Assembly: GCA_903835255.1 (NCBI GenBank)
Contig: CAILMI010000059.1
Coordinates: 1-38,496 of the forward strand
From: an uncultured Verrucomicrobia subdivision 3 bacterium
Lineage (GTDB): Bacteria; Verrucomicrobiota; Verrucomicrobiia; Limisphaerales; UBA11358
Direction: 5' to 3'
DNA: 38,496 nt
Below, one piece after another: positions 1,769-28,369 of the stretch. Below the pieces are notes generated by a model, which made no database searches, was not told the DNA's origin, and was given only the letters and a program-made list of their open reading frames with translations. The translations under genes were made by a program, and so were the position numbers. Positions within the stretch are counted from its first letter, which is position 1. The number at the start of each line of letters is the position of its first letter.

Positions 1769-2365
1769 TTAATGCGCGTAATGCACGGCGCAGCCGTAGG
1801 GTTTGGTCTGCGGCACGGTCACCGGTTTGCCCGCTATCAGTTCTTCCACGGCGGCGCTGACATAGTTCTTTGCGGCACGCGGATCCCCGAACGGTTTGGG
1901 ATTGTTGTCCATCGCCCCTTCGTAAGCGAGGACGCCGTCGGCGGCGATGACGAACAGGTGCGGCGTGGTCTTCATGTTGTACAGGTGCCCAAGGGTGCCG
2001 GCGCTGTCATCAATCCACGCGGTGGCCGCCATTTTCTGGTCCGCCCATTCCGCCCGGGCTTCGGCGGGCGTGCGGTGGTTGGAATTTTCCGGGCCGACCG
2101 AATTGACCAGCAGCCAGACCACGCCCTTGGCGGTCAGGTCCCGTTGCAATTCCTGCGCCGCGCCGGAGTGATAGTGGTTTTTACAGAAGGGACAGCTTCC
2201 ATTGTAGGATTCCAGCACCACAATCTTGCCTTTGTAATCACTGAGCTTGATTGTCTTGCCTTGAATATCGGTCCCGGTGAAATCCGGTGCAGGCTTTCCG
2301 ATTTCCAATCCGAACGCGGCGGCGGCGAAGGCGGTGACGATTCCGAGTGTGAGCAGTGTTTTCAT
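1769..2365 (-). CDS. Exported redoxin (thioredoxin-fold, AhpC/TSA-like)
   Basis: The protein (198 aa) has a signal peptide (MKTLLTLGIVTAFAAAAFGL), then the redoxin opening GKPAPDFTGTDIQGK and the active-site segment NGSCPFCKNHYH with C58 and C61 as a CPFC pair. A PHLFVI segment supplies the cis-proline region. It ends with YGCAVHYAH, a conserved tail cysteine (C192) of this exported family. It is probably a thiol-disulfide or peroxide-reducing protein in the periplasm. The next gene upstream on the same strand encodes a DsbD-like reductant carrier, a natural electron donor, about 106 bases away, so co-transcription is plausible. The fold is certain; the exact substrate is not. Confidence 0.85.
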   Translation of the reverse strand: MKTLLTLGIVTAFAAAAFGLEIGKPAPDFTGTDIQGKTIKLSDYKGKIVVLESYNGSCPFCKNHYHSGAAQELQRDLTAKGVVWLLVNSVGPENSNHRTPAEARAEWADQKMAATAWIDDSAGTLGHLYNMKTTPHLFVIAADGVLAYEGAMDNNPKPFGDPRAAKNYVSAAVEELIAGKPVTVPQTKPYGCAVHYAH

Positions 2366-2471: not shown

Positions 2472-4610
2472 CTAATGACTGGCTTGATCCAGCGCGCTGA
2501 GGACGTGGCCCGGCGTCAGGACTTCCGGAAGCACAATAGCCGGGGCGGCGGGATTTTTCGGGTAAATTAAAACCAGCGGCACGCCGGCGCGGTGGAAGCG
2601 ATTTAGCTCGGATAGAATTGCGCCCGGGGTGCGGGTGTAATCTCCCAGCAGGGCGAGGGCGTTCAGCTCTTTTAATTTGGCGCGCACGGACGGGATCTCC
2701 AGGCTGGTTTTTTTGTTCACCTGGCAGGTGAGGCACCAGTCCGCCGTGAAATCCACCAGCACCGGACGACCTGCGCGGCGCGCCGTGTCCACGGCTTCCG
2801 GGCTCCACGGCTGCCAGTCGATGCCCTCCGGCGATTCCTGAAGCGAACCGGCGTTGGCGGAGGGGGCTATGGCGGAGCGCCAGTGCAGCTGACCTTCGAG
2901 GGCGGCGGCATAACCGCCGGCGAGCAAGAGCAGGGCAATGGCCAAGGCGCTCCCGCGGTGCCGTCGGCCGCGCTGAAAAAATGTGCCGAAAATCCAGGCC
3001 GCAAATGCCGTCACCACCAGGAAAAGGCCCAGCCAGAGGACATTTTTTCCGTAGCTGCCGGAGGCGAGGTTGAACAGCCATGCCGCCGTCGCGAGCATGG
3101 GGAAGCCCATGCCGACCTTGAAGTGTTCCATCCACACGCCGGGCTTGGGCAGAAATTTCAGCCAGGCCGGATGCCAGCTCAGCAGGACATATGGCGCTGC
3201 CAGCCCGGTGCCGACGGCGAGGAAAATCAGGAGGATAAACGGCGCGCTCTGGGCGAAGGCGAAGCCGAGCGCAATGCTGAGGAACGGCGCCGTGCAGGGC
3301 GTGGCCAGCGCGGTGGCCAGCACGCCGTTGAAAAAGGCTCCCGCCGCGCCGTGTTTCGACGCTAGGGACCCTGCGGCATCCAGCGCCCGCCCGCCGAGCG
3401 TCACTTCAAACACGCCGAACAGGTTTAATGCGACCAGCGTGACCAGCACCGTCAGGCAGACCAGGAAAACGGGGTTGCCGAACTGCAGCCCCCATCCCGC
3501 CTGGTGCCCGGCCGATTTCAGGCCGATGACGATCCCCGCCAGCACCAGAAACGACATCAGCACGCCTGCCGCGTACACCAGGCCCAGGGCGCGCACGCGC
3601 CCGGGTGCAGTTTGGGATTGCTGCACAAAACCGAGAATCTTCAGGGCAATGACCGGCAGCACGCACGGCATCAGGTTCAAAATGAGCCCTCCCACAAAAG
3701 CGTAAATCAACATCTTCCAGAGTGATTGCGTTTGCGATTGTCCCGGCGAGGCGCTCGCAACAATCGCGGCGGGAGTCCCATCGCGGATGGGCAGGGCGAC
3801 ATCGTATCCTTCCCGGTTTCCATTGCGTTCCAGGATCAACACCCCGCGGAGGGTAGCGGGCCAGTTGCCGGAGAATTTCTTTACCTGCTTTCGGATTACA
3901 AAGTGGGCGGATGAATCGAGGATTCGTTCCGCCGGAGCCTGGACTTCATATTCCTCGCTGGCGTCCGGGAAGAAATCGACGGCGTCAACCGGTAGCATGG
4001 GGGGGATTTGTCCGGCAGGAAATGTCAGGAGCAGCGTCCGGAGGTCGCCGACTGCCGGTTTTTCCCAGCGGGCTTGAAAGGGCAGGGGGTCGCCGGAGCG
4101 GGGCGTTTTAGCCTGCCAGGATTCCAGGATCGCAGCCGACGCAGACCGCCGTGCGGGGCTGCCAATCTCGAGCGCGGCTTCAATTGGGGCGCTGCCGGGG
4201 ACGCACTGATCCTGGCATTCGAGCCAGGAAACTTCCGCCCGCAAAACCAGCGGGCCGGGCTTGAGGTCGGCGGCTAGGGTGAGTGGCACTAGCAGGACGA
4301 CGTCCTCGTGGTAGCCGTAGGTGGTAACTTCGGCGGGCGGCAGCACCTGTGGCAGCGGCCACTGAATCTCGCCGGCGGTGACGCCGTGCGGGAGTTGCCA
4401 ATCGATCCGGGTGGCGATGCCGGACTCGCCGGGGTTTTTCCAATAGGTGTGCCAGCCGGGATCCATCTTCAGGTTCACGCCGACTAATAAGGTGGTGCCG
4501 GGTGCGGCGGGGTTGGCAGGCAGGAGCAGGCTCACCTGGGTATGAGCGGCTCGGGCGGCCGCGGTCGCCAGGCACAGAAATAATATCAGGACGTTGAAAA
4601 GATGTCTCAT
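2472..4610 (-). CDS. DsbD-like thiol:disulfide interchange protein
   Basis: The product carries electrons from cytoplasmic thioredoxin across the inner membrane to periplasmic thiol proteins. I chose the ATG at 4610 (712 aa) because MRHLFNVLILFLCLATAAARA is a good signal peptide. The frame stays open to 4712, but that adds 34 unconvincing residues. Order: a periplasmic DsbD-alpha/ScsB-like N-terminal domain (WHTYWKNPGESG, WLECQDQCVPG), a multi-helix membrane domain with the redox cysteines in LMPCVLPVIALKIL and TPCTAPFL, and a C-terminal thioredoxin-like domain with DFTADWCLTCQVNKK. All three redox pairs are present. The neighbouring exported redoxin is a likely client. Longer N-terminal domains of this kind are typical of the DsbD/ScsB group rather than the minimal CcdA. 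Confidence 0.9.
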   Translation of the reverse strand: MRHLFNVLILFLCLATAAARAAHTQVSLLLPANPAAPGTTLLVGVNLKMDPGWHTYWKNPGESGIATRIDWQLPHGVTAGEIQWPLPQVLPPAEVTTYGYHEDVVLLVPLTLAADLKPGPLVLRAEVSWLECQDQCVPGSAPIEAALEIGSPARRSASAAILESWQAKTPRSGDPLPFQARWEKPAVGDLRTLLLTFPAGQIPPMLPVDAVDFFPDASEEYEVQAPAERILDSSAHFVIRKQVKKFSGNWPATLRGVLILERNGNREGYDVALPIRDGTPAAIVASASPGQSQTQSLWKMLIYAFVGGLILNLMPCVLPVIALKILGFVQQSQTAPGRVRALGLVYAAGVLMSFLVLAGIVIGLKSAGHQAGWGLQFGNPVFLVCLTVLVTLVALNLFGVFEVTLGGRALDAAGSLASKHGAAGAFFNGVLATALATPCTAPFLSIALGFAFAQSAPFILLIFLAVGTGLAAPYVLLSWHPAWLKFLPKPGVWMEHFKVGMGFPMLATAAWLFNLASGSYGKNVLWLGLFLVVTAFAAWIFGTFFQRGRRHRGSALAIALLLLAGGYAAALEGQLHWRSAIAPSANAGSLQESPEGIDWQPWSPEAVDTARRAGRPVLVDFTADWCLTCQVNKKTSLEIPSVRAKLKELNALALLGDYTRTPGAILSELNRFHRAGVPLVLIYPKNPAAPAIVLPEVLTPGHVLSALDQASH

Positions 4611-4721
4611 CGGCTTTGGAGTGGATATCTTGAATCGGGTGGATATCGCTTTCAACAGCGTGATTTCACAATGTCTGCGCGTTGGTCGGGTGGAAGGTTG
4701 ATGGTTGTTCATGCGCCCTTT

Positions 4722-5711
4722 TTATTTAACGCTGAGTGGAGAATTCAGGAGCTCCATCACCGGTTTGCCGGAGACGTCGTTGCCGAGGGGAATGCCCAGG
4801 AAGAAGCACGCCGTGGCAAAGGTGTCTTCGGTTTGAATTACTTTCCGATCCGTCAGTGTCAGATCATAGCCCTGCCGCACGCCCGGGCCTGAGGCGATCC
4901 ACGGGATGAAGAGGCTGCGGGGGTCGTTGCTTTCGTGACTCGTTCCGGCCCCGCCGTGGTCGGCGGTCAGAAGGATCAGCGTCGACTTCGTGAGCTTCAG
5001 TTTTTTAAGTGTGTCGAGCACGCGCCCCACCGCCGCGTCCGCCTGCGCAATGGCGGTCATCTGTTCCGGGGAACCCCATCCGAATTGATGGCCAATGCTG
5101 TCCACGCCGGGCAGGTGGACGAACATCACCTGCGGCTGATGGTGGCGCAGGATCGATTCGGCCTGCGCGGCAACCTCGCGGTCCGACACCGGTTCATCGG
5201 GGGGGAGGTAGGAGAAGTCGACGATCTTGGGCTTTAGGAACACGATGAATTTCGTTTTGCCGGAAACCATGGCCGTTGAATACCCCGCCTGCTTGGCGAC
5301 TTGGAACAGCGTGGGGACATCCGGATAGGACTGCTCAATATATCCGTTCCAGGTGACGCCATGCTTTTCCGAAGGCGCACCGGTCAGCATGCTCACATGA
5401 CAGGGAAGGGTGTAGGCTTCGGGGGCGGTTTCAGCCCAGAACGAAAAGCTGCCCGCCTTGCAGAGGCCCCGGACTCGAGGCATCTCTCCCCGCAGCAGAA
5501 GGTCCGGCCTCAACCCGTCGATGCTGATGATCAGGACCCTGTCGATCGCCGGCACGGGCCGGGTTGTGGCGGGTTGCGTCGGCTGGTGCGCTGCCCCGGT
5601 GGATAGCGCGATCGGTGCTGCGCTCGCAGCCGTGGGCGCTGGCTTGGGGTTGTGCCACGAACAGCCTGCAGCCATAACCAACACCCAGACGAGCGGGAGA
5701 GATTTCAACAC
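4722..5711 (-). CDS. Lipoprotein phosphodiesterase/nucleotide pyrophosphatase (alkaline phosphatase superfamily)
   Basis: A GTG start at 5711 gives a lipoprotein signal with a lipobox ending MAAGC (C17). The metal-binding motifs of the type I phosphodiesterase family follow in order: VLIISIDGLRPDLL (first metal Asp), PEAYTLPCHVSMLTG (catalytic Thr region), MVFVHLPGVDSIGHQFGW, and LLTADHGGAGTSH. The protein is probably anchored in the envelope and hydrolyses phosphodiester or phosphomonoester bonds; the sequence does not reveal the substrate. It lies about 110 bases upstream of the DsbD-like start on the same strand, so an operon is possible. Length (329 aa) is normal for compact members. Confidence 0.87.
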   Translation of the reverse strand: MLKSLPLVWVLVMAAGCSWHNPKPAPTAASAAPIALSTGAAHQPTQPATTRPVPAIDRVLIISIDGLRPDLLLRGEMPRVRGLCKAGSFSFWAETAPEAYTLPCHVSMLTGAPSEKHGVTWNGYIEQSYPDVPTLFQVAKQAGYSTAMVSGKTKFIVFLKPKIVDFSYLPPDEPVSDREVAAQAESILRHHQPQVMFVHLPGVDSIGHQFGWGSPEQMTAIAQADAAVGRVLDTLKKLKLTKSTLILLTADHGGAGTSHESNDPRSLFIPWIASGPGVRQGYDLTLTDRKVIQTEDTFATACFFLGIPLGNDVSGKPVMELLNSPLSVK

Positions 5712-6035: not shown

Positions 6036-8219
6036 TCAGGGTGCCAGTTTCATGCGGTAAAACCGGCAGGGCGCCGCATTCGTGTCCGTGGCCTGCCATT
6101 GCCCGTTTGCATCCGCGCTGTTCGTGCCAATGTTAGACCAGTCTGTGAGTTCGGACGTGGCTTGCAAGATATAAGTCGCTCCGGCAGCGCCGGTGCCGGT
6201 GAGCGTGACGCCGCTCACTCTATTGTAGTGAATCTCTGAAATGACCAGGGGCGCCGAGGGCGCCGTCAGGCTGGTCAGGGGCAAATGGACGGACATGGGC
6301 AGAGCGGCGCCCGGCAGGGTCAGGATGGCGTTGGCGCTCGTGGCGCTGCCCACAAGATTGGTGACGGTGACGGAATAAATCCCGGCATCGCCGACCGTCA
6401 GCGCGGAGATTTTGAGGGTAGTCAGGGTCGCCCCAGAAATGTTTCCGCCATCTGCCAGGGGGACGCTGTTCCGGAACCATTGATAGTGCAATGGCGCAGC
6501 CCCTTTGGCTTTGACCTTGAAGGTGGCGCTGCCGCCGATTTTGCCCGTGATGGACGCGGGTGATTTCACGATGAGCGGCGGCGCGAGCACGGACACGGTT
6601 GCGACGGCGCTGGTGGCTTTTCCGTATAGATTAGTCACGATCACGGAGTAGGAACCGCTGTTTTTCGTGGTGACATTGGACAGAGTGAGCGAGCTGAGGG
6701 TGGAGCCGGAAATCGTGGCGCTATTCACAATTTTTTTTCCTTTTTGAAGCCATTGATAGGCCAGCGGGCCGGTGCCGCTGGCGGTGACGGTGAGCACCAC
6801 CGTCGAATTCAGCGCCACGGTGCCGCTGGCGGGCGGGGTGGCAATGAGGGGCGGGGTGGCCGGATACTCCACGGTGATGAGGGCATTGGAGCTGGCCGTT
6901 CTGCCATACACATTGGTGACCACGACAGAATAGCCGCCCGCGTCGTTGGTTGTCAGCGCCGTGAGGGTGAGAATGTTTGAGACCGAGCCATAACGATTCC
7001 CTCCATCCGTCAGGGCATTGGTGCCTTTGTACCATTGATAGCCCAGAGGGCCGCTGCCGGTGGCGGCAACCGCCAAGGCCAGGCTGCTGCCCGGTGCCCC
7101 CGTCTGGTTGGTGGGCTGTGTGGTGATGGCCGGCGGACCCAGCACCGTCAGGGCGGCATTGGTGCTGGTGACGCTGCCGGCGAGATTGGTGATGATCACG
7201 GAATAATTCCCGGCATCCGCCGCTGTGAGGGAAGACACGGTGAGGAGACTGGAGTTGGCTCCGGAATATTTGATCCCGTTGGTGAGGCCGATGCCCCCCT
7301 TAAGCCAGCGATAAGTCAGCGGCGTGCCGCCGCTGGCGGTGACGGCGAATGGCGCGCTGCCGCCGTTGGTGACGCTCAAGCCTGCTGGCTGGCTCGTGAT
7401 GGCGGGCGGGATGATGACGGAGAGCGCGGCGGCCGCGCTGGTGGCGGTGCCGACAGAATTGCTGACGGTCACGGAATAATTACCCGCATTGGTCGCCGAC
7501 ACGGAGGTCAGCGTGAGCGTGGCGGAATTCGCGCCGGAGACGTTGCCCCCATTGGCGAGCGGCGAGCCGCCTTTCATCCAATAATATCCCAGAGGCGCGG
7601 TGCCGCTGGCGGTGACGGTGAAGATGGCCGTCTGTCCGGCGGCGACCGTCGCGGCGGCGGGTGAACTGGTGATGGCGGGGGCCGTGGGAGTGACCGAGCC
7701 GACGATGCTGATGGTGATGTTCTGGGAGAGTTGGGCGTTGCCGGGGCTGACCACGGTTACGGCGGTTGGAAAACTGCCCGCCGACGTGGGAGTGCCGTAA
7801 ATGACGCCGCCGATAGTCGACGCCCCGTTCACCCAGGAGGATTTGAAAGTCAGTCCGGGCGGTAGGGTCAAGGTCGTGGATTGTCCGTTGTAGAGCAGGG
7901 GTGAGGTCGTGGCGCCGCTGGATAAAATTAAATAATCATTGTTCGCCGCCTTACTGCCCCCGCTGATGGACACCGTCACGTTGTTGGAAAAAGGCGTTCC
8001 CACGGTCCCGTTGAAGGTGCTGGGCGTCGTGAATGCGGAGGTCGCCCCAGAGACGGCATCCACCGCCCCCAGCGCGGCGCTGGAGCCGATAGCCCACCGC
8101 AGAATCATGGCGAAGCTGGAGGTGGCCGCCGGCGCAGTGACAATAGTGCGCAGCAGCGGCAGGAGTTGCAGTCCGGCGGCCAGCAGCAGGGCGGGAGTTT
8201 GGAATCGGAATAATATCAT
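6036..8219 (-). CDS. Ig-repeat surface protein with a flavinylation-like motif
   Basis: I place the start at ATG 8219 (727 aa). The frame runs on to 8612, but that part overlaps the upstream gene and is low-complexity nonsense. Residues 8-28 and about 36-53 are hydrophobic. They are followed by D54-A-V-S-G-A-T60, which fits the D-x-x-[ST]-G-A-[ST] motif flavinylated by ApbE in FMN-bind proteins. Residues about 61-175 form a beta-rich putative-Ig domain. Five Ig-like repeats follow (about 180-270, 271-360, 361-451, 456-546, 547-636), each with a QW/RW core and a DAG-YSV strand and without disulfide cysteines. The C-terminus (about 640-727) is a beta domain ending RFYRMKLAP. It is the last gene of the ApbE cluster, eight bases after its paralogue. 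Surface location is inferred; the flavin link is a hypothesis. Confidence 0.8.
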   Translation of the reverse strand: MILFRFQTPALLLAAGLQLLPLLRTIVTAPAATSSFAMILRWAIGSSAALGAVDAVSGATSAFTTPSTFNGTVGTPFSNNVTVSISGGSKAANNDYLILSSGATTSPLLYNGQSTTLTLPPGLTFKSSWVNGASTIGGVIYGTPTSAGSFPTAVTVVSPGNAQLSQNITISIVGSVTPTAPAITSSPAAATVAAGQTAIFTVTASGTAPLGYYWMKGGSPLANGGNVSGANSATLTLTSVSATNAGNYSVTVSNSVGTATSAAAALSVIIPPAITSQPAGLSVTNGGSAPFAVTASGGTPLTYRWLKGGIGLTNGIKYSGANSSLLTVSSLTAADAGNYSVIITNLAGSVTSTNAALTVLGPPAITTQPTNQTGAPGSSLALAVAATGSGPLGYQWYKGTNALTDGGNRYGSVSNILTLTALTTNDAGGYSVVVTNVYGRTASSNALITVEYPATPPLIATPPASGTVALNSTVVLTVTASGTGPLAYQWLQKGKKIVNSATISGSTLSSLTLSNVTTKNSGSYSVIVTNLYGKATSAVATVSVLAPPLIVKSPASITGKIGGSATFKVKAKGAAPLHYQWFRNSVPLADGGNISGATLTTLKISALTVGDAGIYSVTVTNLVGSATSANAILTLPGAALPMSVHLPLTSLTAPSAPLVISEIHYNRVSGVTLTGTGAAGATYILQATSELTDWSNIGTNSADANGQWQATDTNAAPCRFYRMKLAP

Positions 8220-8227
8220 TTTAAAAG

Positions 8228-9223
8228 CTAAGGTTGGATTGCCACCCGGTAAAAACGGTTGGAGCTGCCCAGCGCATCGGTCACGGTCACCGGCGCGGCG
8301 GTAGCGGGCGGCGGCACATTGGTCAGGACCGCCCAGACGCCGCCGGTGAGGCCGCTGTTGGTCTGAACGGAATTCGTCAGGCCCATTGTGGGAATGAAGG
8401 TGAATCGGAACACACCGCCACTGTTGGTCGGGGTGGAGAGGGCGGTGGGCAGCGGGTTGGTGACCGTCAGGGTGGCGAAAGCGCTGGTGACAGAGCCGCT
8501 GCTGTTGGTGACGATCACGGAATACTTGCCTGCTTGACTGGCTCGGACGTTGGTCAGCGACAGGGAAGTGTTGGTGGCGTTCAGGAGGGAAGTGTTGGTG
8601 TTGAAGAACCATCGATAGCTCAAGGGCGCCGTCCCGGCGGTCACGGTGAAGGTGGCGTTTCCGCCGGCGACGTTGGTGAAGCTCGCCGGTTGGTTGGTGA
8701 TGACGGGAGGGGAAGCGACCGCGGCAGTGATTCGAATTGTAATGTTGGTTGTCACTGAAAGCTGATTAGGATAGCTGAGAGTGACAGTGAACGAGTTTGT
8801 CCCGATCGTTGTCGGTGTCCCATAGATAGAGTCGTAAATGGGGTTAACATCTATAAATTTCATGATTAATCCCGCCGGCATGGCGAAATTTGTGGTTTGT
8901 CCGTTGATGGTTAGAAAAGCGCTTATCCCATTGGTCGTAAGGGTTGTGACAGCGCCAGGATCAGCGCCGCTGGATTTGATAGTTAAGTTATTGGTAAATG
9001 GGACGCCTACTGTTCCTGTGAAGATATTTGTAGATGTGAAATAATTGGTGGCTGCCGAATAGGCGTCGTATGCCCCCAGCGCGGCGCTGGATCCAATGGT
9101 CCAGCGCAGGATAATGGCGAAGCTGGAGGTGGCCGCGGGGGCGGTGACGATGTTGCGCAGCAGCGGCAGGAGTTGCAGTCCGGCGGCCAGCAGTAAGGGC
9201 AATGCCCGGGTGAATCGTTTCAT
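8228..9223 (-). CDS. Ig-domain protein, paralogue of the downstream gene
   Basis: A 331-residue protein whose first 60 residues closely match the downstream protein: LLLAAGLQLLPLLR, then IVTAPAATSSFA, then ILRW-IGSSAALGA, ending in D53-A-Y-S-A-A-T59. This is like the flavinylation motif but with Ala in place of the central Gly. A beta-rich putative-Ig domain follows, then one Ig-like repeat (about 172-257) and a short C-terminal beta segment ending NRFYRVAIQP. It sits 30 bases downstream of the DUF4266 gene and 8 bases before its larger paralogue, so all three are probably co-transcribed. A tandem duplication followed by gain or loss of Ig repeats would explain the pair. Confidence 0.78.
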   Translation of the reverse strand: MKRFTRALPLLLAAGLQLLPLLRNIVTAPAATSSFAIILRWTIGSSAALGAYDAYSAATNYFTSTNIFTGTVGVPFTNNLTIKSSGADPGAVTTLTTNGISAFLTINGQTTNFAMPAGLIMKFIDVNPIYDSIYGTPTTIGTNSFTVTLSYPNQLSVTTNITIRITAAVASPPVITNQPASFTNVAGGNATFTVTAGTAPLSYRWFFNTNTSLLNATNTSLSLTNVRASQAGKYSVIVTNSSGSVTSAFATLTVTNPLPTALSTPTNSGGVFRFTFIPTMGLTNSVQTNSGLTGGVWAVLTNVPPPATAAPVTVTDALGSSNRFYRVAIQP

Positions 9224-9253: not shown

Positions 9254-9472
9254 TTAGTTGCAGCCGCAGCCGCCGCCGCCCACGCCGCGTCCGCCGCTGG
9301 CTTCTTCGCGCGAGTACCAGATGTGTTCGAATTGCGCGGTCGCAATCGGGTCGCGCCCCGATTGCATGGTGTAATCCGTCAGGGTGCCCCGTTCCCAGGG
9401 CTTGACGTTGGCGCAGCCGCTGGTGAGCAGTAGCGTGGTGAGGCCGGCAGCAAGCAGGAGTTTTGATTTCAT
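9254..9472 (-). CDS. DUF4266 small lipoprotein with Gly/Cys-rich tail
   Basis: This 72-residue protein has a lipobox LTSGC (C20) and the DUF4266 hallmarks VKPWERGTLTDYTMQ and HIWYSREEASGG, ending in RGVGGGGCGCN. The family is known by sequence but not by function, and is usually found beside DUF3570 barrels and ApbE, as here. Its ATG overlaps the TGA of the thioredoxin gene (ATGA at 9469-9472), so translation is likely coupled. The tail has two cysteines in CGC and many glycines, suggesting a metal, redox or modification site. The EASGG stretch loosely resembles a flavinylation site, but it lacks the SGAT core. Confidence 0.88.
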   Translation of the reverse strand: MKSKLLLAAGLTTLLLTSGCANVKPWERGTLTDYTMQSGRDPIATAQFEHIWYSREEASGGRGVGGGGCGCN

Positions 9473-9987
9473 GGGGTGTTTTTTAAAAGGGATTCAATCT
9501 GGTCGACATATTCTTTCCGGGTGGCGGCGCCGTGGAAGCCGTTGTGCAAAAACCGCACCTTGCCCTCGCGATCAATAATATAGGAAGTGGGCATCGTCTG
9601 CGGTTCCGCCGCCGCAACCAGCTGGTGCCCGGCATCGCGCACCACTGTGAAGCTGACGGGATTCTTTTTTAAAAACGTTTCCATCTTGGCCGGCTTCTCG
9701 TCCACGCTGACCGCGAGGATGACGAGCCCCTGGTCCTGATATTTTTTCTGGAGCTCGTCCATGACCGGAAAAGATTCGGCGCAGGGGCCGCACCAGGAGG
9801 CCCAGAAATCCAGGATCACCACCTTGCCCTTGAGCGAGGCGGGCAGGGCGCCCTCAAGTTTCATGCCGGAAAAGTCGGGCGCCAAATCGCCAACTTTGAG
9901 CGCGGCGGAGGCGGTGAACAGGGTGCCGGAGGCCAGGGCGGCCACCGCAATTTTTTTGAGCAGGGATTTAAGCAGGGATGTAGTCAT
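9469..9987 (-). CDS. TlpA/ResA-like periplasmic thioredoxin
   Basis: I chose the ATG at 9987 (172 aa) because MTTSLLKSLLKKIAVAALAS is a good signal peptide. The frame upstream to 10116 is Pro/Ser-rich and lies inside apbE. The redoxin opening VGDLAPDFSG precedes the active site FWASWCGPC (C66, C69). TMPTSYIID supplies the cis-proline loop. The role is a membrane-proximal or periplasmic disulfide reductase. It overlaps the end of apbE by 20 bases and its stop overlaps the DUF4266 start, so it is a fixed part of the cluster. It may keep the DUF4266 cysteines reduced, which is inference from position. Confidence 0.9.
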   Translation of the reverse strand: MTTSLLKSLLKKIAVAALASGTLFTASAALKVGDLAPDFSGMKLEGALPASLKGKVVILDFWASWCGPCAESFPVMDELQKKYQDQGLVILAVSVDEKPAKMETFLKKNPVSFTVVRDAGHQLVAAAEPQTMPTSYIIDREGKVRFLHNGFHGAATRKEYVDQIESLLKNTP

Positions 9988-10966
9988 GGAATCGTTTGGT
10001 GTAGAACTGCGTGGTGTGGCTGGTGATGACGCCGGCGGCGCCGGGGTGGGTCTCGATGAGTTGGAGCCCTTCTTTTTCGCCCAGAATAAAGACGGTGGTG
10101 GAAAACAGCCCGGCAATGGTGCAGCTGGGCGCGATCACAGACACGGCGCGGCAGCCGTTATCGGCCGGATAGCCGGTGCGCGGGTCGAGGATGTGGCTGT
10201 AGCGTCGGCCATTGAGTTCGAAGAAGCGCTGGGTGTCGCCGGAGGTGGCGACGGCATGATCGGTCACCGCCACCCCGGTCCAGCATTGGCCGGCGGCGTG
10301 CGGGTTTTCCAGGCCGATCCACCAAAAATTCCTTTCCGGTGCATGGCCGCGGACCCGGACGTCTTGGCCGAAATCCACCATCACATTGGGAATGCCCCGC
10401 TGGATAGCCAGATTCATCACGCAGTCCACGGCGTATTCCTTGCCGATGCCGCCCAGGTCGATGCTCATGCCGGCGCGCGGCAGGAAAACCCCGCCCGGGC
10501 GCCGCTCCACCTTGTTCCAGCCCACCAGTTCCAAGGCCGCGCGGATGGCGTCGTGGGAGGGGATTGTGTGGGGCTGCTGTTTCCAGTTCCACAGTTGAAT
10601 CAGCGGCAGGGAGGTGGGATCGAAGGCGCGCCGGGTGAAGAAGAACAATTCCTGGCAGAGCGCGAAAATCCGTTCCATGTCCGGATCGATTTCCACCCAG
10701 TGCTCGCCCGCCGCCGCATTGATGCGGCTGATCAGGCTGTCGGGGATGAAGCGCGAATAGCGCGCCTCGAACTGCCCCGTCCAGGCGAGCGCGGCGCGCT
10801 GGAAATCCTGGGCCGCCTCGGCGGAAACCCCGTGGCAGTGGACCCGGCAGAGCGTGCCCATGGCCCGGAACTCGAGCTTATGCAGGCCCTTTTCCACCGT
10901 CCTCTGCGCGGAATACGCGACGCGGTCGATGGCTTCCTGGGCCGATTTGGGGCTGCTCATCACCAT
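9968..10966 (-). CDS. apbE: FAD:protein FMN transferase (ApbE family)
   Basis: ApbE enzymes move FMN from FAD to a Thr/Ser of a target protein. Family motifs are present: RAMGTLCRVH near the N-terminus, RYSRFIPDSLISRIN, SIDLGGIGKEYAVD (substrate/FAD site), VDFGQDVRVRG, RRYSHILDPRTGYP and VSVIAPSCTIAGLFST. The protein is 332 aa, normal for the core enzyme, but I see no signal peptide or lipobox, unlike many periplasmic ApbEs. The start is ATG 10966, or ATG 10960, which forms TGATG with the stop of the DUF3570 gene; translation is coupled either way. Candidate targets lie in the same cluster, above all the DAVSGAT-bearing Ig protein. Confidence 0.93.
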   Translation of the reverse strand: MVMSSPKSAQEAIDRVAYSAQRTVEKGLHKLEFRAMGTLCRVHCHGVSAEAAQDFQRAALAWTGQFEARYSRFIPDSLISRINAAAGEHWVEIDPDMERIFALCQELFFFTRRAFDPTSLPLIQLWNWKQQPHTIPSHDAIRAALELVGWNKVERRPGGVFLPRAGMSIDLGGIGKEYAVDCVMNLAIQRGIPNVMVDFGQDVRVRGHAPERNFWWIGLENPHAAGQCWTGVAVTDHAVATSGDTQRFFELNGRRYSHILDPRTGYPADNGCRAVSVIAPSCTIAGLFSTTVFILGEKEGLQLIETHPGAAGVITSHTTQFYTKRFHDYIPA

Positions 10967-12150
10967 AAAATTGCGAGACCGACTGTGTACACGTTGGCTT
11001 TGGGATACATGCCGGCATTGGTCGTGCCGTCCAGTCCGTGCATTTCGTAGCGGTGATAGCCGGCAATGATGTGCAGATGGTCGTTAATCACCCCCGTGAC
11101 CTGCAGACCCGAGTCCAGAGTATAGAGTTCTGAGAGCCGGTAGTCGGAGGAATGCATGCCGGGCGGTCCATTTGGGTCGATGGTGAAAGGCCCTGAGAAA
11201 GTGACGGCGTAAAAATCTGCCGCGGACTGTTCATAGAAGCGGAACATCGGTTCGACGAGCAGATGTTTACCGAGCCACTGATGCCAGGTGAGCCCCAGCG
11301 TGTTGGCATAGACCCCGTAGGAGTCGTGATAAAACCGGTAGGAACCTTCTAGGCTCGCGTTGAGCGGGTCGAAGTAGTGCAGCATCGAGGTGTAGAGGAT
11401 TTCCTTGTTCCGATGGCTGGGGCGCCGTTCAGGGACGCCGATGCTGAAGGGGAAACCGTCCGGGGTGAATCCCGCCAGCCGGTAAGGATCACTTAAATAG
11501 CCGGAATCATTGCCGAAGGTGAAGGCGGCATTGAATGTGGTCTTGGCCGAGAGCAGTTGGGAGATGCCAATCAGGGCGGTGGTGGAATATTTGGGGTTCC
11601 AGGTTTTTCCGTTCGCTTCCCGGACGGAATCAATATTCTCCGCAATCCCATATTGGAGGGTGGTGTTTTTATCGTTGAATTCCACCGCATCATTGAGCGA
11701 CATGCCATACGAGGTGTAATCGCTTTCCGCACTGTAGGAAAAACCGGGCGTGAGAGTGTGGTTCCCCAGCTTGGCATCGGCCTGGAGGCTGATCGCCCGT
11801 CGGATATCCTCGAGTTGGGTCATGTAGACTTTTCCCGAGGAGGAAACGGTTCCGGTCGGGGTGGAGCCGGAGATGCCGTCGTAGGTGTAATCCCCCTTGA
11901 TATCCAAATAATCCGTCAGTTTCTGTTCAAAATAGACCGAATGCGTCTCGATGGTCATCCGGTCGCCATCTTCCTTGTAATATTCAAAACCGTATTCCAC
12001 CTGGTTTTCGGCGTGGACCCGGCCGCCCCCGAACAATTGGGTCAGAAAAGCCAGGCCCAGCTGCCAGCGCAGCCTGCAAGTGGATTTTTTTTGGTCGGAG
12101 GATTTGGTTTTAGTCTTCACAGTATGAAAATGGGACAGTTTAATTCGCAT
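10960..12150 (-). CDS. DUF3570 outer-membrane beta-barrel protein
   Basis: A 396-residue protein with an N-terminal export region (LRWQLGLAFLTQLFGGGRVHA) followed by alternating amphipathic strands rich in Tyr/Phe/Trp, such as VEYGFEYYKEDGDR, GSYRFYHDSYGVYANTLGLTW and HIIAGYHRYEMHG. It ends in the aromatic residue of GLAILW, as outer-membrane barrels do. The pattern matches the DUF3570 family, which typically occurs with DUF4266 and ApbE. It is the first gene of the cluster and is divergent from the E2 gene across a 206-base gap that must hold both promoters. A transport or electron-conduit role is possible, but no function is established. Confidence 0.85.
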   Translation of the reverse strand: MRIKLSHFHTVKTKTKSSDQKKSTCRLRWQLGLAFLTQLFGGGRVHAENQVEYGFEYYKEDGDRMTIETHSVYFEQKLTDYLDIKGDYTYDGISGSTPTGTVSSSGKVYMTQLEDIRRAISLQADAKLGNHTLTPGFSYSAESDYTSYGMSLNDAVEFNDKNTTLQYGIAENIDSVREANGKTWNPKYSTTALIGISQLLSAKTTFNAAFTFGNDSGYLSDPYRLAGFTPDGFPFSIGVPERRPSHRNKEILYTSMLHYFDPLNASLEGSYRFYHDSYGVYANTLGLTWHQWLGKHLLVEPMFRFYEQSAADFYAVTFSGPFTIDPNGPPGMHSSDYRLSELYTLDSGLQVTGVINDHLHIIAGYHRYEMHGLDGTTNAGMYPKANVYTVGLAILW

Positions 12151-12356
12151 TGGCGATCAGTTCGTTTTTTGCACCCTACCAGAAATTCAGCATAGGTGGC
12201 TATTTGATTTTATGAGATCGGCCACTTTTTATTGATTCGTTTTCAGTAGCAATCGGCCTGCCAAGTTGTCGGAGACGGGAGGTGTTTGTGGATTTTGTTT
12301 GAAATTATTTCTGGAAAGCGGCGCCGGTTTCCGCCAAGCTAGGCGCTTGTTAATTT

Positions 12357-13643
12357 ATGGATGTTAAACTTCCCAAACTGGGTGAGGGCGCGGATTCAGG
12401 CATCGTGATCAATGTCTTCGTTAAAGAAGGTGACACGGTTGCAAAGGATCAGGCCATTCTTGAGCTGGAAAACGAAAAGGCCGTCGCCTCCATTCCCTCC
12501 ACCGGGGCGGGCGTGGTGACCGCGGTTCATGTAAAAGCCGGCGACCGCGTCAGCATCGGCCAGCGCCTGGTCACCTTGAGCGGCGGGGCCGAGGCCTCTC
12601 CCGCGCCGGCGTCCCCGGCCGCCGCCAAGCCCGCCGCAAAAAAAGCGGTTGCCAAGCCGGCGCCCGAGCCGGAGGAAGTCGCCGAGGAATCGGAAGAACT
12701 GGAGGAGGAAATTTCTGACGCGGCCGTCGCCGCGTCCCCATCCGTCCGCAAGCTGGCGCGCGAGTTGGGCATCAACCTGGGCAAAATCCGAGGCAGCGAG
12801 GCTGGCGGACGTATCGTTCTCGGCGATGTCCGCGCCTATATCCAGCGCCTGATGAAGGCCGCCGCCCGGCCCGCCCCGGTGGCCGCCGCCGCTGCGGCGC
12901 CGGCGAAACCGGTTGCGCCTTCGATTGATTTTTCCCAATGGGGGCCGGTTACCAAATCGCCCGTCACTCCGCTGCGCAAGGTCATCGCCCGGCGCATGTC
13001 CGAAAGCTGGAATGCCGTCGCCCGCGTCACGCAGTTCGACGACATTGATTTCACTCGGTTGGGCGAGTTGCGCAAGCAGTTTGCCCCTGCCTATGAGGCC
13101 AAGGGCGTCAAGCTCACCCTCACGCCGTTCGTGCTGAAGGCGGTGGCGGAGACTCTTAAAAAGCATCCGATTTTTAATTCCAGCCTGGACGAGGCGGCAA
13201 ATGAGATCGTGCTCAAAAGCTACATCCACCTCGGCATCGCGGTGGATACCGATCAAGGCCTGATGGTTCCTGTGATTCGCAACGTGGACCAGAAGTCCCT
13301 GCTCGAACTTGCCAAGGAATTGGAATCGCTCGCAGCCCGCGCGCGCGATCGGAAAATCACCGCCGATGAAATGAAGGGCGGGACCTTCACGATTTCCAAC
13401 CAGGGGGCGATCGGCGGCGGACATTTCACGCCGATTGTCAACCTGCCGGAAGTGGCCATCCTCGGGCTCGGGCGCGGCGCACTCAAGCCGGTGGTGCGCG
13501 AGGGCAAGGTGGAGGTTCGCCTGATGACGCCGATGGCCTTGAGCTACGATCACCGGGTGATCGATGGTGGCAGCGCGGCGCGGTTCACGGTGGACCTGCT
13601 CGCGGCGTTTCACGATTTCAAGGAAGCAACGGTTAAACTTTAA
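12357..13643 (+). CDS. 2-oxoacid dehydrogenase E2 (dihydrolipoamide acyltransferase)
   Basis: The acyltransferase core of a pyruvate-dehydrogenase-type complex, 428 aa. The lipoyl domain (about 1-77) carries the lipoyl-lysine candidate K41 in LELENEKAVASIPS, where the usual DKA is EKA. An Ala/Pro/Lys linker leads to the E1/E3-binding domain (about 125-162, VRKLARELGINLGKI then GSEAGGRIVLGDVRAYI). A second linker and the catalytic domain follow, with SYDHRVIDGG near the C-terminus (H399, D403). The E3 gene begins 15 bases downstream. No E1 gene is in the window: the upstream neighbour is divergent. PDH is more likely than OGDH because of the linker style, but substrate specificity cannot be fixed here. 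Confidence 0.92.
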   Translation: MDVKLPKLGEGADSGIVINVFVKEGDTVAKDQAILELENEKAVASIPSTGAGVVTAVHVKAGDRVSIGQRLVTLSGGAEASPAPASPAAAKPAAKKAVAKPAPEPEEVAEESEELEEEISDAAVAASPSVRKLARELGINLGKIRGSEAGGRIVLGDVRAYIQRLMKAAARPAPVAAAAAAPAKPVAPSIDFSQWGPVTKSPVTPLRKVIARRMSESWNAVARVTQFDDIDFTRLGELRKQFAPAYEAKGVKLTLTPFVLKAVAETLKKHPIFNSSLDEAANEIVLKSYIHLGIAVDTDQGLMVPVIRNVDQKSLLELAKELESLAARARDRKITADEMKGGTFTISNQGAIGGGHFTPIVNLPEVAILGLGRGALKPVVREGKVEVRLMTPMALSYDHRVIDGGSAARFTVDLLAAFHDFKEATVKL

Positions 13644-13658
13644 GCGCAAAGAAATTTC

Positions 13659-15077
13659 ATGGACTCGATTAAAACAGACGTGGTGGTCGTGGGCGCGGGC
13701 CCTGGCGGATATGCGGCGGCGTTTTACGCAGCCGATTTAGGCAAGAAGGTCGTCCTGATTGAAAGGGAGAAGCGGTTGGGCGGCGTGTGCCTCAATCGCG
13801 GCTGCATTCCCTCCAAGGCGCTCCTCTACGCCACCCATCAGATCCTCAACGCGCGCGAATCCGCCCATCGCGGCATCGTGTTTGCCGAACCCTCGGTGGA
13901 CCTCTCCAAGCTGCGTGACTGGAAGGAATCCATCGTTCAAAAACTCGGCGGCGGCGTGGCTTCCCTGGCGAAGATGCATCATGTGCAGGTCATTTCCGGG
14001 CGGGGCTATTTTGAAGGCTCCAATAAATTGCGGGTCGAGACTGAGTCAGGTCAGCAGTTCGTTGAATTCGAGCAGGCCATTTTGGCCGTCGGATCCGCCC
14101 CGGCCATGCCCAAGGCGTTTGACCTGGGCAATCCCCGCGTGATGACTTCCACCGAGGCGCTGGAGTTGGAAGATATCCCCGAAAATCTGCTCGTCGTGGG
14201 CGGCGGTTACATCGGCATGGAGATGGGCACGGTCTATGCCGCGCTCGGCAGCAAAATCACCTTGGTGGAGGCGATGGATAACATCCTGGCCGGCGCCGAT
14301 CCCGATCTGGCCCGCCCCGTCCTGACCCACGCCAAGAAAATGTTCAAGGAGATCCGGCTCAAGGCCCGCGTCACCAAAATGTCCACCGTCGGCAAGCAGA
14401 TCAAAGTGGATTCGGAATACAACGGCGAAAAACTCTCCGAACTTTATGACCGCGTCCTGGTCTCCGTCGGCCGCATCCCCAACAGCGCCGATCTCGGCCT
14501 GCAGAACACCCGGGTGACGCTCGATGAAAAAGGGTTTGTCAAAGTCAATTCCAAGCAGCAGACCAGCGACCCGAGCATTTACGCCATCGGCGACATCGCG
14601 GGCGGCATCCTGCTGGCGCACAAGGCGCACAAGGAGGCCCGCATCGCCGTGGAAGTCCTGACCGGTGCGGACAGCCTCTTTGAAAGCGTGATTCCTGCCG
14701 TCGTCTTCACCGACCCCGAAATCGCCTGGTGCGGCCTGACCGAAGCCGAGGCCCGGGAGAAGGGGATTAAATTCGATATCGCCAAATTCCCATGGTCCGC
14801 ATCGGGACGGGCGCTGTCCTTCGACCGCACGGACGGGCTGACCAAGATTCTGGTCTGCCCCGAAACAGACCGCGTTCTGGGCGTGGGCATCACCGGCGCC
14901 GGCGCCGGCGAACTGATCGCCGAGGCCGTCCTCGCTATCGAGATGGGCGCCACCGTTGAGGACATCGCACTCACCATCCATCCGCACCCGACCCTGTCCG
15001 AGACTCTCATGGAATGCGCTGAATCCTACTTCGGCCACGCGACCCACATTATTTCCAAGAAGAAATCGACGGAATAA
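13659..15077 (+). CDS. lpdA: Dihydrolipoamide dehydrogenase (E3)
   Basis: E3 reoxidises dihydrolipoyl groups with NAD+. The 472-residue flavoprotein has the FAD fingerprint VVVVGAGPGGYAAA at residues 7-20, the redox disulfide GGVCLNRGCIPSK (C44, C49), the NAD site VVGGGYIGMEMG, the second FAD motif IYAIGDIAGG, and the C-terminal catalytic pair in HPHPTLSE (H443, E448). It follows the E2 gene by 15 bases and is followed by a strong terminator at 15102-15130, so the two form a short operon. All catalytic residues are present. Confidence 0.96.
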   Translation: MDSIKTDVVVVGAGPGGYAAAFYAADLGKKVVLIEREKRLGGVCLNRGCIPSKALLYATHQILNARESAHRGIVFAEPSVDLSKLRDWKESIVQKLGGGVASLAKMHHVQVISGRGYFEGSNKLRVETESGQQFVEFEQAILAVGSAPAMPKAFDLGNPRVMTSTEALELEDIPENLLVVGGGYIGMEMGTVYAALGSKITLVEAMDNILAGADPDLARPVLTHAKKMFKEIRLKARVTKMSTVGKQIKVDSEYNGEKLSELYDRVLVSVGRIPNSADLGLQNTRVTLDEKGFVKVNSKQQTSDPSIYAIGDIAGGILLAHKAHKEARIAVEVLTGADSLFESVIPAVVFTDPEIAWCGLTEAEAREKGIKFDIAKFPWSASGRALSFDRTDGLTKILVCPETDRVLGVGITGAGAGELIAEAVLAIEMGATVEDIALTIHPHPTLSETLMECAESYFGHATHIISKKKSTE

Positions 15078-27553: not shown

Positions 27554-28369
27554 TTAAAAAATTCTTACGTCATGCCAAATGCCCATGGAGCACAGGCGAA
27601 TGTAGAGATCGGTGAATCCCACGGAGAACAGGCTAAACCACGCCCACATCATGTGGCGGCTGTTCAGGCAGCTCACGCAGTTATAAGTCTTGGCACACGA
27701 AGGGGATTTAGTTTTGGAATCGAGGAAACCACCCACCAGATGACGCAGCGAATGGCAGCCCAGCGTGTAGCTGCTCAGCAGAAAGACATTCAGCAACATC
27801 ACCAGCGTGCCGACCCCGATGCCGAAATGGCTTGCCCCGGTGACAGGATCTGTGAACCACATTGCCTTGAGCGCGTCATAAGCCAGCAGGATGACGAAGG
27901 CGACGGCGATGTAGAGGAAGTAGCGGTGGATATTCTGGATCAGGAGCGGGAAGGAGCGTTCGCCCAGATAAGTTTTGCGGGGCTCGCCCACGGCGCAGTT
28001 GATGGGGTCGGCCCAGAACGCTTTATAATAAGCGCCCCGGTAATAATAGCAGGTGAAACGAAATCCGCCGGGCACCCAGAGAATGAGCAGAGCGGGTGAG
28101 AACGGAAGCCACGCAGGCCAGAAGCCCGGCTTTCCATGGAAAATCGCATGAGGCGAATCCCCGAAAATTTCCGGCGAATAGAACGGCGAGACATAATTCG
28201 CCCCCCCCGCCGCAAGCCAGTAGTGGTTGCCTTGGAAGGCCGCCCACGTGGAATAGATAATAAAGGCCGAAAAGCCGAGGAAAATAAAGATGGGCTTGAC
28301 CCACCACGCGTCAGGGCGGGTGGTTTGCCCGAAGGAACGTTGTTTGGGAAGGGTGTCTGCGTAAGCCAT
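27554..28369 (-). CDS. sdhC: Succinate dehydrogenase membrane anchor, Sdh1 type
   Basis: I chose ATG 28369 (271 aa, MAYADTLPKQRSF). The frame upstream runs into folC. It is one large anchor with about five membrane helices, not the usual small SdhC/SdhD pair. Landmarks are FRFTCYYYRGAYYKAFW (104-119), NCAVGEPRKTYLGER, QNIHRYFLYIAV, SSYTLGCHSLRHLVGG (C205, H206, H210) and LNSRHMMWAW (H239), ending GIWHDVRIF. Size and motifs resemble mycobacterial Rv0249c, whose complex is reported to hold a membrane-embedded Rieske-type 2Fe-2S cluster. The Cys/His residues here could serve the same role, which is inference. First gene of sdhCAB. Confidence 0.88.
   Translation of the reverse strand: MAYADTLPKQRSFGQTTRPDAWWVKPIFIFLGFSAFIIYSTWAAFQGNHYWLAAGGANYVSPFYSPEIFGDSPHAIFHGKPGFWPAWLPFSPALLILWVPGGFRFTCYYYRGAYYKAFWADPINCAVGEPRKTYLGERSFPLLIQNIHRYFLYIAVAFVILLAYDALKAMWFTDPVTGASHFGIGVGTLVMLLNVFLLSSYTLGCHSLRHLVGGFLDSKTKSPSCAKTYNCVSCLNSRHMMWAWFSLFSVGFTDLYIRLCSMGIWHDVRIF

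Follow-up and report, generated by a model that had tools for sequence, protein, structure and literature searches.

An Ig-domain protein of an uncultured Verrucomicrobia subdivision 3 bacterium, here called Ig protein B, is probably a member of an undescribed family of substrates of the flavin transferase ApbE, to judge from its sequence and those of its relatives. Its N-terminal module is conserved among homologues, is encoded behind a DUF3570-ApbE operon, co-occurs with DUF3570 across genomes, and ends in a motif whose candidate acceptor position is almost always Ser or Thr. The window, the whole stretch of DNA that was analyzed, is 38,496 nucleotides long (assembly GCA_903835255.1, contig CAILMI010000059.1).

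A candidate flavin acceptor motif in Ig protein B

6036..8219, minus strand: Ig protein B, 727 aa, with the module, a first beta domain and five I-set stretches (Pfam and AlphaFold)
8067..8198, minus strand: two predicted helices in the conserved N-terminus of Ig protein B, spanning residues 8-28 and 35-51 (AlphaFold and alignments)
8040..8060, minus strand: DAVSGAT, residues 54-60 of Ig protein B, with Thr60 as candidate FMN acceptor (motif scan and homologue conservation)

Coordinates and translation bear out the earlier note in reading residues 54-60 as an exact fit to D-x-x-[ST]-G-A-[ST], and DAVSGAT is the single match to that pattern in the 727 residues. The protein was also said to have no FMN_bind domain, and Pfam (E ≤ 0.01) indeed gave Ig families only; no FMN_bind (PF04205) match was found in the source genome at E ≤ 1e-5. 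Taken alone, DAVSGAT is weak evidence, since Ser, Thr, Ala and Gly abound in the protein and 1.0% of its composition shuffles contain the pattern. SGAT strings also occur at residues 101 and 595, as would suit a chance match to a loose pattern. Chance is nevertheless a very improbable explanation, being contradicted by the aligned conservation of the motif in 142 non-redundant homologues, which raises DAVSGAT above the level of the shuffles.

The window has a second match to the pattern, DPVTGAS (about 27830-27850, minus strand), in a 306-codon open frame that by reading resembles a respiratory-complex membrane subunit; this match is probably due to chance.

The gene cluster is of a described DsbD type

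The genes around Ig protein B follow one another on the minus strand in the order DUF3570, ApbE, TlpA, DUF4266-type lipoprotein, Ig protein A, Ig protein B, phosphodiesterase, DsbD and AhpC-type protein.

10960..12150, minus strand: DUF3570 protein with an N-terminal signal-like segment (Pfam)
11860..11880, minus strand: DGISGST in the DUF3570 protein, where the operon's ApbE is expected to act (sequence)
9968..10966, minus strand: ApbE flavin transferase, 256.6 bits (Pfam)
9469..9987, minus strand: TlpA/redoxin-like thioredoxin, with a putative start inside the listed open frame 9469-10116 (Pfam)
9254..9472, minus strand: DUF4266-type lipoprotein, 72 aa, C-terminal end GGGGCGCN (CxC pattern and gene place, not Pfam)
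8228..9223, minus strand: Ig protein A, 331 aa, module and one Ig domain, tandem paralogue (Pfam and alignment)
9047..9067, minus strand: DAYSAAT in Ig protein A, with Ala at position 5 and Tyr at position 3 (alignment)
4722..5711, minus strand: type I phosphodiesterase (Pfam)
2472..4712, minus strand: DsbD transmembrane electron transporter (Pfam)
1769..2365, minus strand: AhpC/TSA-redoxin protein (Pfam)

Pfam and gene order place ApbE in the same cluster as Ig protein B, as had been claimed, and the start of the ApbE gene overlaps the DUF3570 stop codon. With ApbE, DUF3570, a thioredoxin-like protein, DUF4266 (assigned by pattern) and DsbD, the cluster corresponds to the DsbD-type cluster described by Meheust 2021 (PMC8238504). 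The 72-residue lipoprotein agrees with the account of DUF4266 given there. According to the available text of that paper, DUF3570 is the established ApbE substrate type of such an operon, and flavinylation of the Chlorobium luteolum DUF3570 protein was demonstrated. Adjacency of ApbE to the Ig proteins consequently proves little, DUF3570 being already its expected substrate. DUF3570, which carries DGISGST, could by itself explain the ApbE of the operon, and because it is the expected substrate we rejected the idea that ApbE is present for the Ig protein alone. The AlphaFold model of the DUF3570 protein is all-beta (mean pLDDT 89.5, 19 strands of at least 3 residues), with its motif in strand 82-102, and may represent an outer-membrane barrel. 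A seed search with the phosphodiesterase returned the window's own protein as the sole match.

Neither Verrucomicrobi nor immunoglobulin nor Ig domain occurs as a term in the main text of PMC8238504, as available. Our literature searches found no paper joining ApbE, immunoglobulin and flavinylation. DUF3570 and DUF4266 led only to PMC8238504, and flavinylation with Verrucomicrobi only to PMC11323493, whose available text concerns another phylum.

The motif closes a conserved two-helix module

By alignments and AlphaFold, two helices of the module lead into the motif loop, and Ig-like domains follow; the earlier note had placed the motif between a hydrophobic N-terminal region and Ig modules. 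In the model of Ig protein B residues 1-183, the helices (8-28 and 35-51) have a block pLDDT of about 68-82, a moderate confidence that decides neither topology nor cleavage. The loop that follows helix 2 and holds the motif has low confidence (block pLDDT 55), and the beta domain that begins a few residues past it is mostly above 90.

No Pfam family was found for the module in the two window Ig proteins scanned. NCBIfam gave only sub-cut-off matches for five module proteins, none of them within the leader, and a fold search with the module model gave low TM-scores, chiefly against Ig-like and antibody domains, with no usable match for the helices.

We aligned 142 non-redundant modules (<90% identity). 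Several helix columns are conserved among them: Arg or Lys at -17 in 124, Trp at -16 in 78, Gly at -13 in 78, Ala at -10 in 113 and Gly at -2 in 137. Such conservation would also be expected if the motif were a structural helix end or membrane anchor, uncleaved and unflavinylated, by which the module anchors the Ig array beside DUF3570. That explanation predicts neither the restriction of position 7 to Ser or Thr nor the cytochrome-headed replacement described below, and we consider it improbable.

The 84-aa N-terminus of Ig protein A is 76% identical to that of Ig protein B over query residues 9-82, and the motif of Ig protein A departs from the acceptor pattern in having Ala instead of Gly at position 5. 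The window thus carries two module genes in tandem whose motifs have diverged (SAAT in one, SGAT in the other). Tandem copies occur at same-genus loci as well, with three in L160.

The candidate acceptor position is constrained to Ser or Thr

The composition of the seven motif positions in the 142 modules was as follows.

Position 1: H 69, D 56, N 9, Q 5, and A, E and V one each
Position 2: A 83, S 28, T 19, G 11, C 1
Position 3: V 98, L 24, and others
Position 4: S 103, A 32, V 4, and T, G and H one each (Ser or Thr in 104)
Position 5: G 121, A 14, S 3, Q 2, K 1, R 1
Position 6: A 136, G 3, S 2, V 1
Position 7, the candidate acceptor: T 87, S 54, A 1

Homologues lacking the acceptor hydroxyl, which the earlier note had named as evidence against its proposal, amount to this single Ala row. 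On a FastTree phylogeny built without the motif columns and the Ala row, from which L071 was dropped, at least 16 changes fall at position 7, every one of them a Ser/Thr exchange, against 45 changes at position 8. As a family-wide rule, D-x-x-[ST]-G-A-[ST] survives at its candidate acceptor, with 141 of 142 modules having Ser or Thr there, and fails at Asp, which is less common than His, and at Gly, which is replaced in 21 of 142. Any Gly-Ala-[ST] copy is missing from nine of 51 genomes of the order, a figure that comes from a tally of 40 with and 11 without after G101 and G193 were taken as mis-parsed (their N-termini, at L062 and L020, read DTVSGAS and HTVSGAS). Two of these nine genomes, G042 and G092, have Arg or Lys at position 5.

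We compared these sites with those of established substrate types. Among FMN_bind proteins of the same order, Asp stands at position 1 in 9 of 25 scored sites. Thirty loci were opened for these 25: L302 and L330 showed no motif, and L323 (ANIAGAT), L326 and L327 (EGVAGST) fell under the score cut. The spread at position 1 of the FMN_bind sites is not forced by the method, whereas their uniform core partly is: the scan needs a GA-like core, and its score favors D, S/T, G, A and T. DUF3570 sites at named loci (67 frames, of which 65 were read and one is the window's own; the pattern demands a following Pro) have Asp at position 1 in 62 and Ser or Asn in 3, with Ala at position 4 in 6. The available text of PMC12052999 calls the motif Asp strictly conserved and reports that changing Asp to Ala had a minor effect, that changing Gly to Ala left about half, and that changing Thr to Ala abolished flavinylation. 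We therefore rejected a requirement for Asp, given its presence in 56 of 142 modules and 9 of 25 FMN_bind sites and the minor effect of its loss in PMC12052999.

Signal peptides and compartment

Signal peptidase requires small residues at -3 and -1. Motif positions 4 (S/A/V/T/G) and 6 (A/G/S) are small in 141 of 142 modules each, and at position 5, which would be the unconstrained -2 residue, A, S, Q, K and R occur. The conserved N-terminus might then be a long signal peptide cut by signal peptidase I at SGA/T, with no flavin and the Ig protein acting as a structural partner. Gly at alignment column -2 (137 of 142) is a plausible helix end, the Ig-like domain begins only a few residues after the motif, and a conserved +1 residue may stem from the mature protein, as DUF3570 keeps AED after its likely signal. 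Cleavage at this site nevertheless leaves unexplained why +1 is Ser or Thr in 141 of 142 modules through at least 16 switches, and why units of ApbE and module occur (see below). Gly-Ala-Thr is also found in all 31 divergent rows (E < 1e-3, window copies excluded, some rows duplicating places), and helix 1 may itself direct export, with the cut falling between the two helices. We regard signal peptidase cleavage at the motif as rather unlikely, yet as the one strong competitor of the flavin reading, with more in its favor than the structural anchor.

An export role for helix 1 is hinted at by the DUF3570 signal consensus, LAxxLxL....R..AED, which resembles it; on this likeness, helix 1 may be an export signal that is cleaved off between the helices. 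The signal-like segment of one DUF3570 protein (L151:7637-8917), LGLAAALQLLPICR, is a close likeness of module helix 1.

By inspection and hydropathy, neither the operon ApbE nor the second ApbE (L214) of the source genome shows a signal peptide. Among 37 ApbE N-termini compared, a clear hydrophobic stretch was seen only in the second ApbE of L079, which lies outside the operon; the ApbEs of L257 and L258, from other classes, also appear to have one. Nearly all DUF3570-linked ApbEs inspected likewise show none, although DUF3570 looks exported. ApbE thus looks cytosolic and its expected and candidate substrates look exported, a difficulty shared by DUF3570 and the module and one that touches the compartment objection named in the earlier note. 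In the available text of PMC12052999, periplasmic placement of ApbE is described as essential in one early study.

Modules occur in genomes that encode DUF3570

In a draw of 196 genomes of the order, searched with the 84-residue query, the module was found in 51. DUF3570 was present in 53 genomes, including all 51 with the module; the other two were G020 (a partial DUF3570 match) and G135. None of the module genomes was among the six without ApbE. Genomes without ApbE, another finding that would have told against the earlier proposal, thus did not turn up among module carriers; this is a weak test, since ApbE is present in 190 of 196 genomes and does not discriminate.

In a draw across the phylum, scoring at most 15 candidates per genome so that counts are lower bounds, 23 of 387 genomes had the module, and all 23 had DUF3570; the ApbE comparison was confined to the order draw. 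DUF3570 was found in 41 genomes of the phylum draw, 25 in the class of the window and 16 in other classes. No module match was obtained in these 16, and none was seen in the 11 that were opened. The two DUF3570 genomes of the window's class without a module match were G385, in which a motif scan of downstream open frames found the module missed by the search (L246), and G429, which has a haem-type protein instead. Fisher P values for this co-occurrence ignore relatedness and were not taken as probabilities.

A search of 68 genomes of the family gave module matches in 23, seven of them without DUF3570 (G598, G604, G611, G615, G620, G624 and G625). These seven matches were rejected as artefacts: they are weak and partial, and each lies on the strand opposite a single longer open frame (525-759 codons).

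The module lies behind the operon in relatives

The usual place of the module gene is behind DUF3570-ApbE-TlpA-DUF4266(-DsbD). Across the 51 order genomes, the module shares the fetched stretch with DUF3570 in 48 and with ApbE in 47 (a further module-ApbE pair of G095, in L058, was left out of the latter tally). That the module is conserved with the ApbE operon, as the earlier note proposed to check, is in line with these counts; the strict form of its motif is not, as Asp and Gly vary.

We also scanned named genomes from the ApbE side, which gave 80 loci, 69 of them with DUF3570. Where at least 2.5 kb followed ApbE at a named DUF3570 locus, the module was found in 47 of 57, counts that overlap the draw genomes and are not independent of the order draw. 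The module model used here was retrained on those loci; with the order-only model at E ≤ 1e-3, 57 of the 80 are marked as well. Among the 10 loci without a module, L150 is a short contig and L188 is a haem case. At four of the 47 positive loci (L149, L175, L178 and L193), a gap of 3-5 kb separates the module from the genes of the operon. Labels of the named loci include Verrucomicrobia subdivision 3, Limisphaerales, Pedosphaera, Opitutaceae and others; a few (Proteobacteria, Akkermansia muciniphila) appear to be mislabelled.

Some stretches carry ApbE and the module without DUF3570. Three were found in the order draw (L129, L130 and L047), and in L047 DUF3570 lies on the same contig just beyond the fetched stretch. 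ApbE and module also form a unit in L176 and in L182 (the contig of L130), where the neighboring genes look unrelated, by reading only. In G006, G095 and G155, the DUF3570 operon has no ApbE match and ApbE adjoins the module elsewhere in the genome. L114, L099 and L100 are DUF3570 operons of this kind, without an ApbE match and with the same genomes' ApbE beside the module elsewhere.

A cytochrome-type head takes the place of the module in two genomes

Two operons have a different large protein encoded directly behind DUF4266: 1,541 residues in L247 of G429 (9897-14519) and 1,614 residues in L188, on a contig of G583 (10218-15059). Both proteins open with a signal-like segment followed by CITCH. 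Pfam assigned cadherin-like, Ig and TIG domains to the L247 protein, with cytochrome c matches below the curated cut-offs; the Ig-like array of L188 was judged from sequence rather than Pfam. No TlpA match was found in the L247 and L188 operons.

A search with the haem protein in the 68 family genomes gave some match in 62, of which two were strong (9.0e-79, the protein itself, and 4.3e-47; the next was 1.3e-7). Both strong matches lie beside DUF3570 in genomes without a module match. Among the 25 DUF3570 genomes of the family, 16 have the module on the same contig, G622 adds one more, two have the haem protein, and in six neither was found, some of these six being cut by contig ends. A cytochrome-headed Ig array thus occupies the gene position of the module in two genomes; two cases are few, and such an array may not be equivalent to the module in function.

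Relation to known ApbE substrates

The evidence overall likely favors a new class of ApbE substrate, on account of the co-occurrence with DUF3570, the Ser/Thr switches, the DUF3570-free units of ApbE and module, and the haem replacement. Under this new-substrate reading, the first ~60 residues would form a pair of short helices that run into [DH]-x-V-[SA]-G-A-[ST], and ApbE would attach FMN to Thr60. The Ig domains would hold the flavin head in the envelope, within an electron path of DsbD, TlpA, DUF4266 and DUF3570.

The module shares with DUF3570 (PF12094; PMC8238504, as available) its operon, a D-x-[ILV]-[STA]-G-[AS]-[ST] type of site and the lack of an FMN_bind fold. DUF3570 differs in being an all-beta protein of ~400 residues with its site in a strand and Asp in 62 of 65, whereas the module combines two helices with a loop, is mounted on Ig domains and has D or H at the first motif position. 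With FMN_bind proteins (PF04205; NqrC, RnfG) it has in common the core [ST]GA[ST] and, in the order, a variable position 1; unlike them, it has no FMN_bind match and carries its motif near the N-terminus by hydrophobic helices. The Flavin-tag (PMC12052999) is likewise a short motif that suffices without a flavin-binding fold, and the available text describes a seven-residue tag as sufficient for ApbE and best at a terminus; that tag is engineered, whereas the module would be natural. Flavodoxin_4 and FMN_red substrates (PMC11334425) are also not FMN_bind proteins and, in the available text, were found through apbE co-location. They have a flavin-binding fold, whereas none was detected in the module. 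The cytochrome-headed arrays of L247 and L188 resemble the module proteins in their place behind DUF4266, their operon and their Ig-like array, and differ in that a CITCH haem site replaces the two helices and GA[ST].

We tentatively suggest, as a plausible reading toward which we do not quite lean, that a fold-free flavin-acceptor head on Ig arrays serves the DUF3570 system as an interchangeable redox cap, with FMN in most lineages and cytochrome c in a few. If the new-substrate reading is correct, the module would represent a new class of ApbE substrate without a detected flavin-binding fold and would supply a missing component of the redox operon. The exchange of flavin and haem at one gene position would then extend the flavin-cytochrome redundancy proposed in the available text of PMC8238504.
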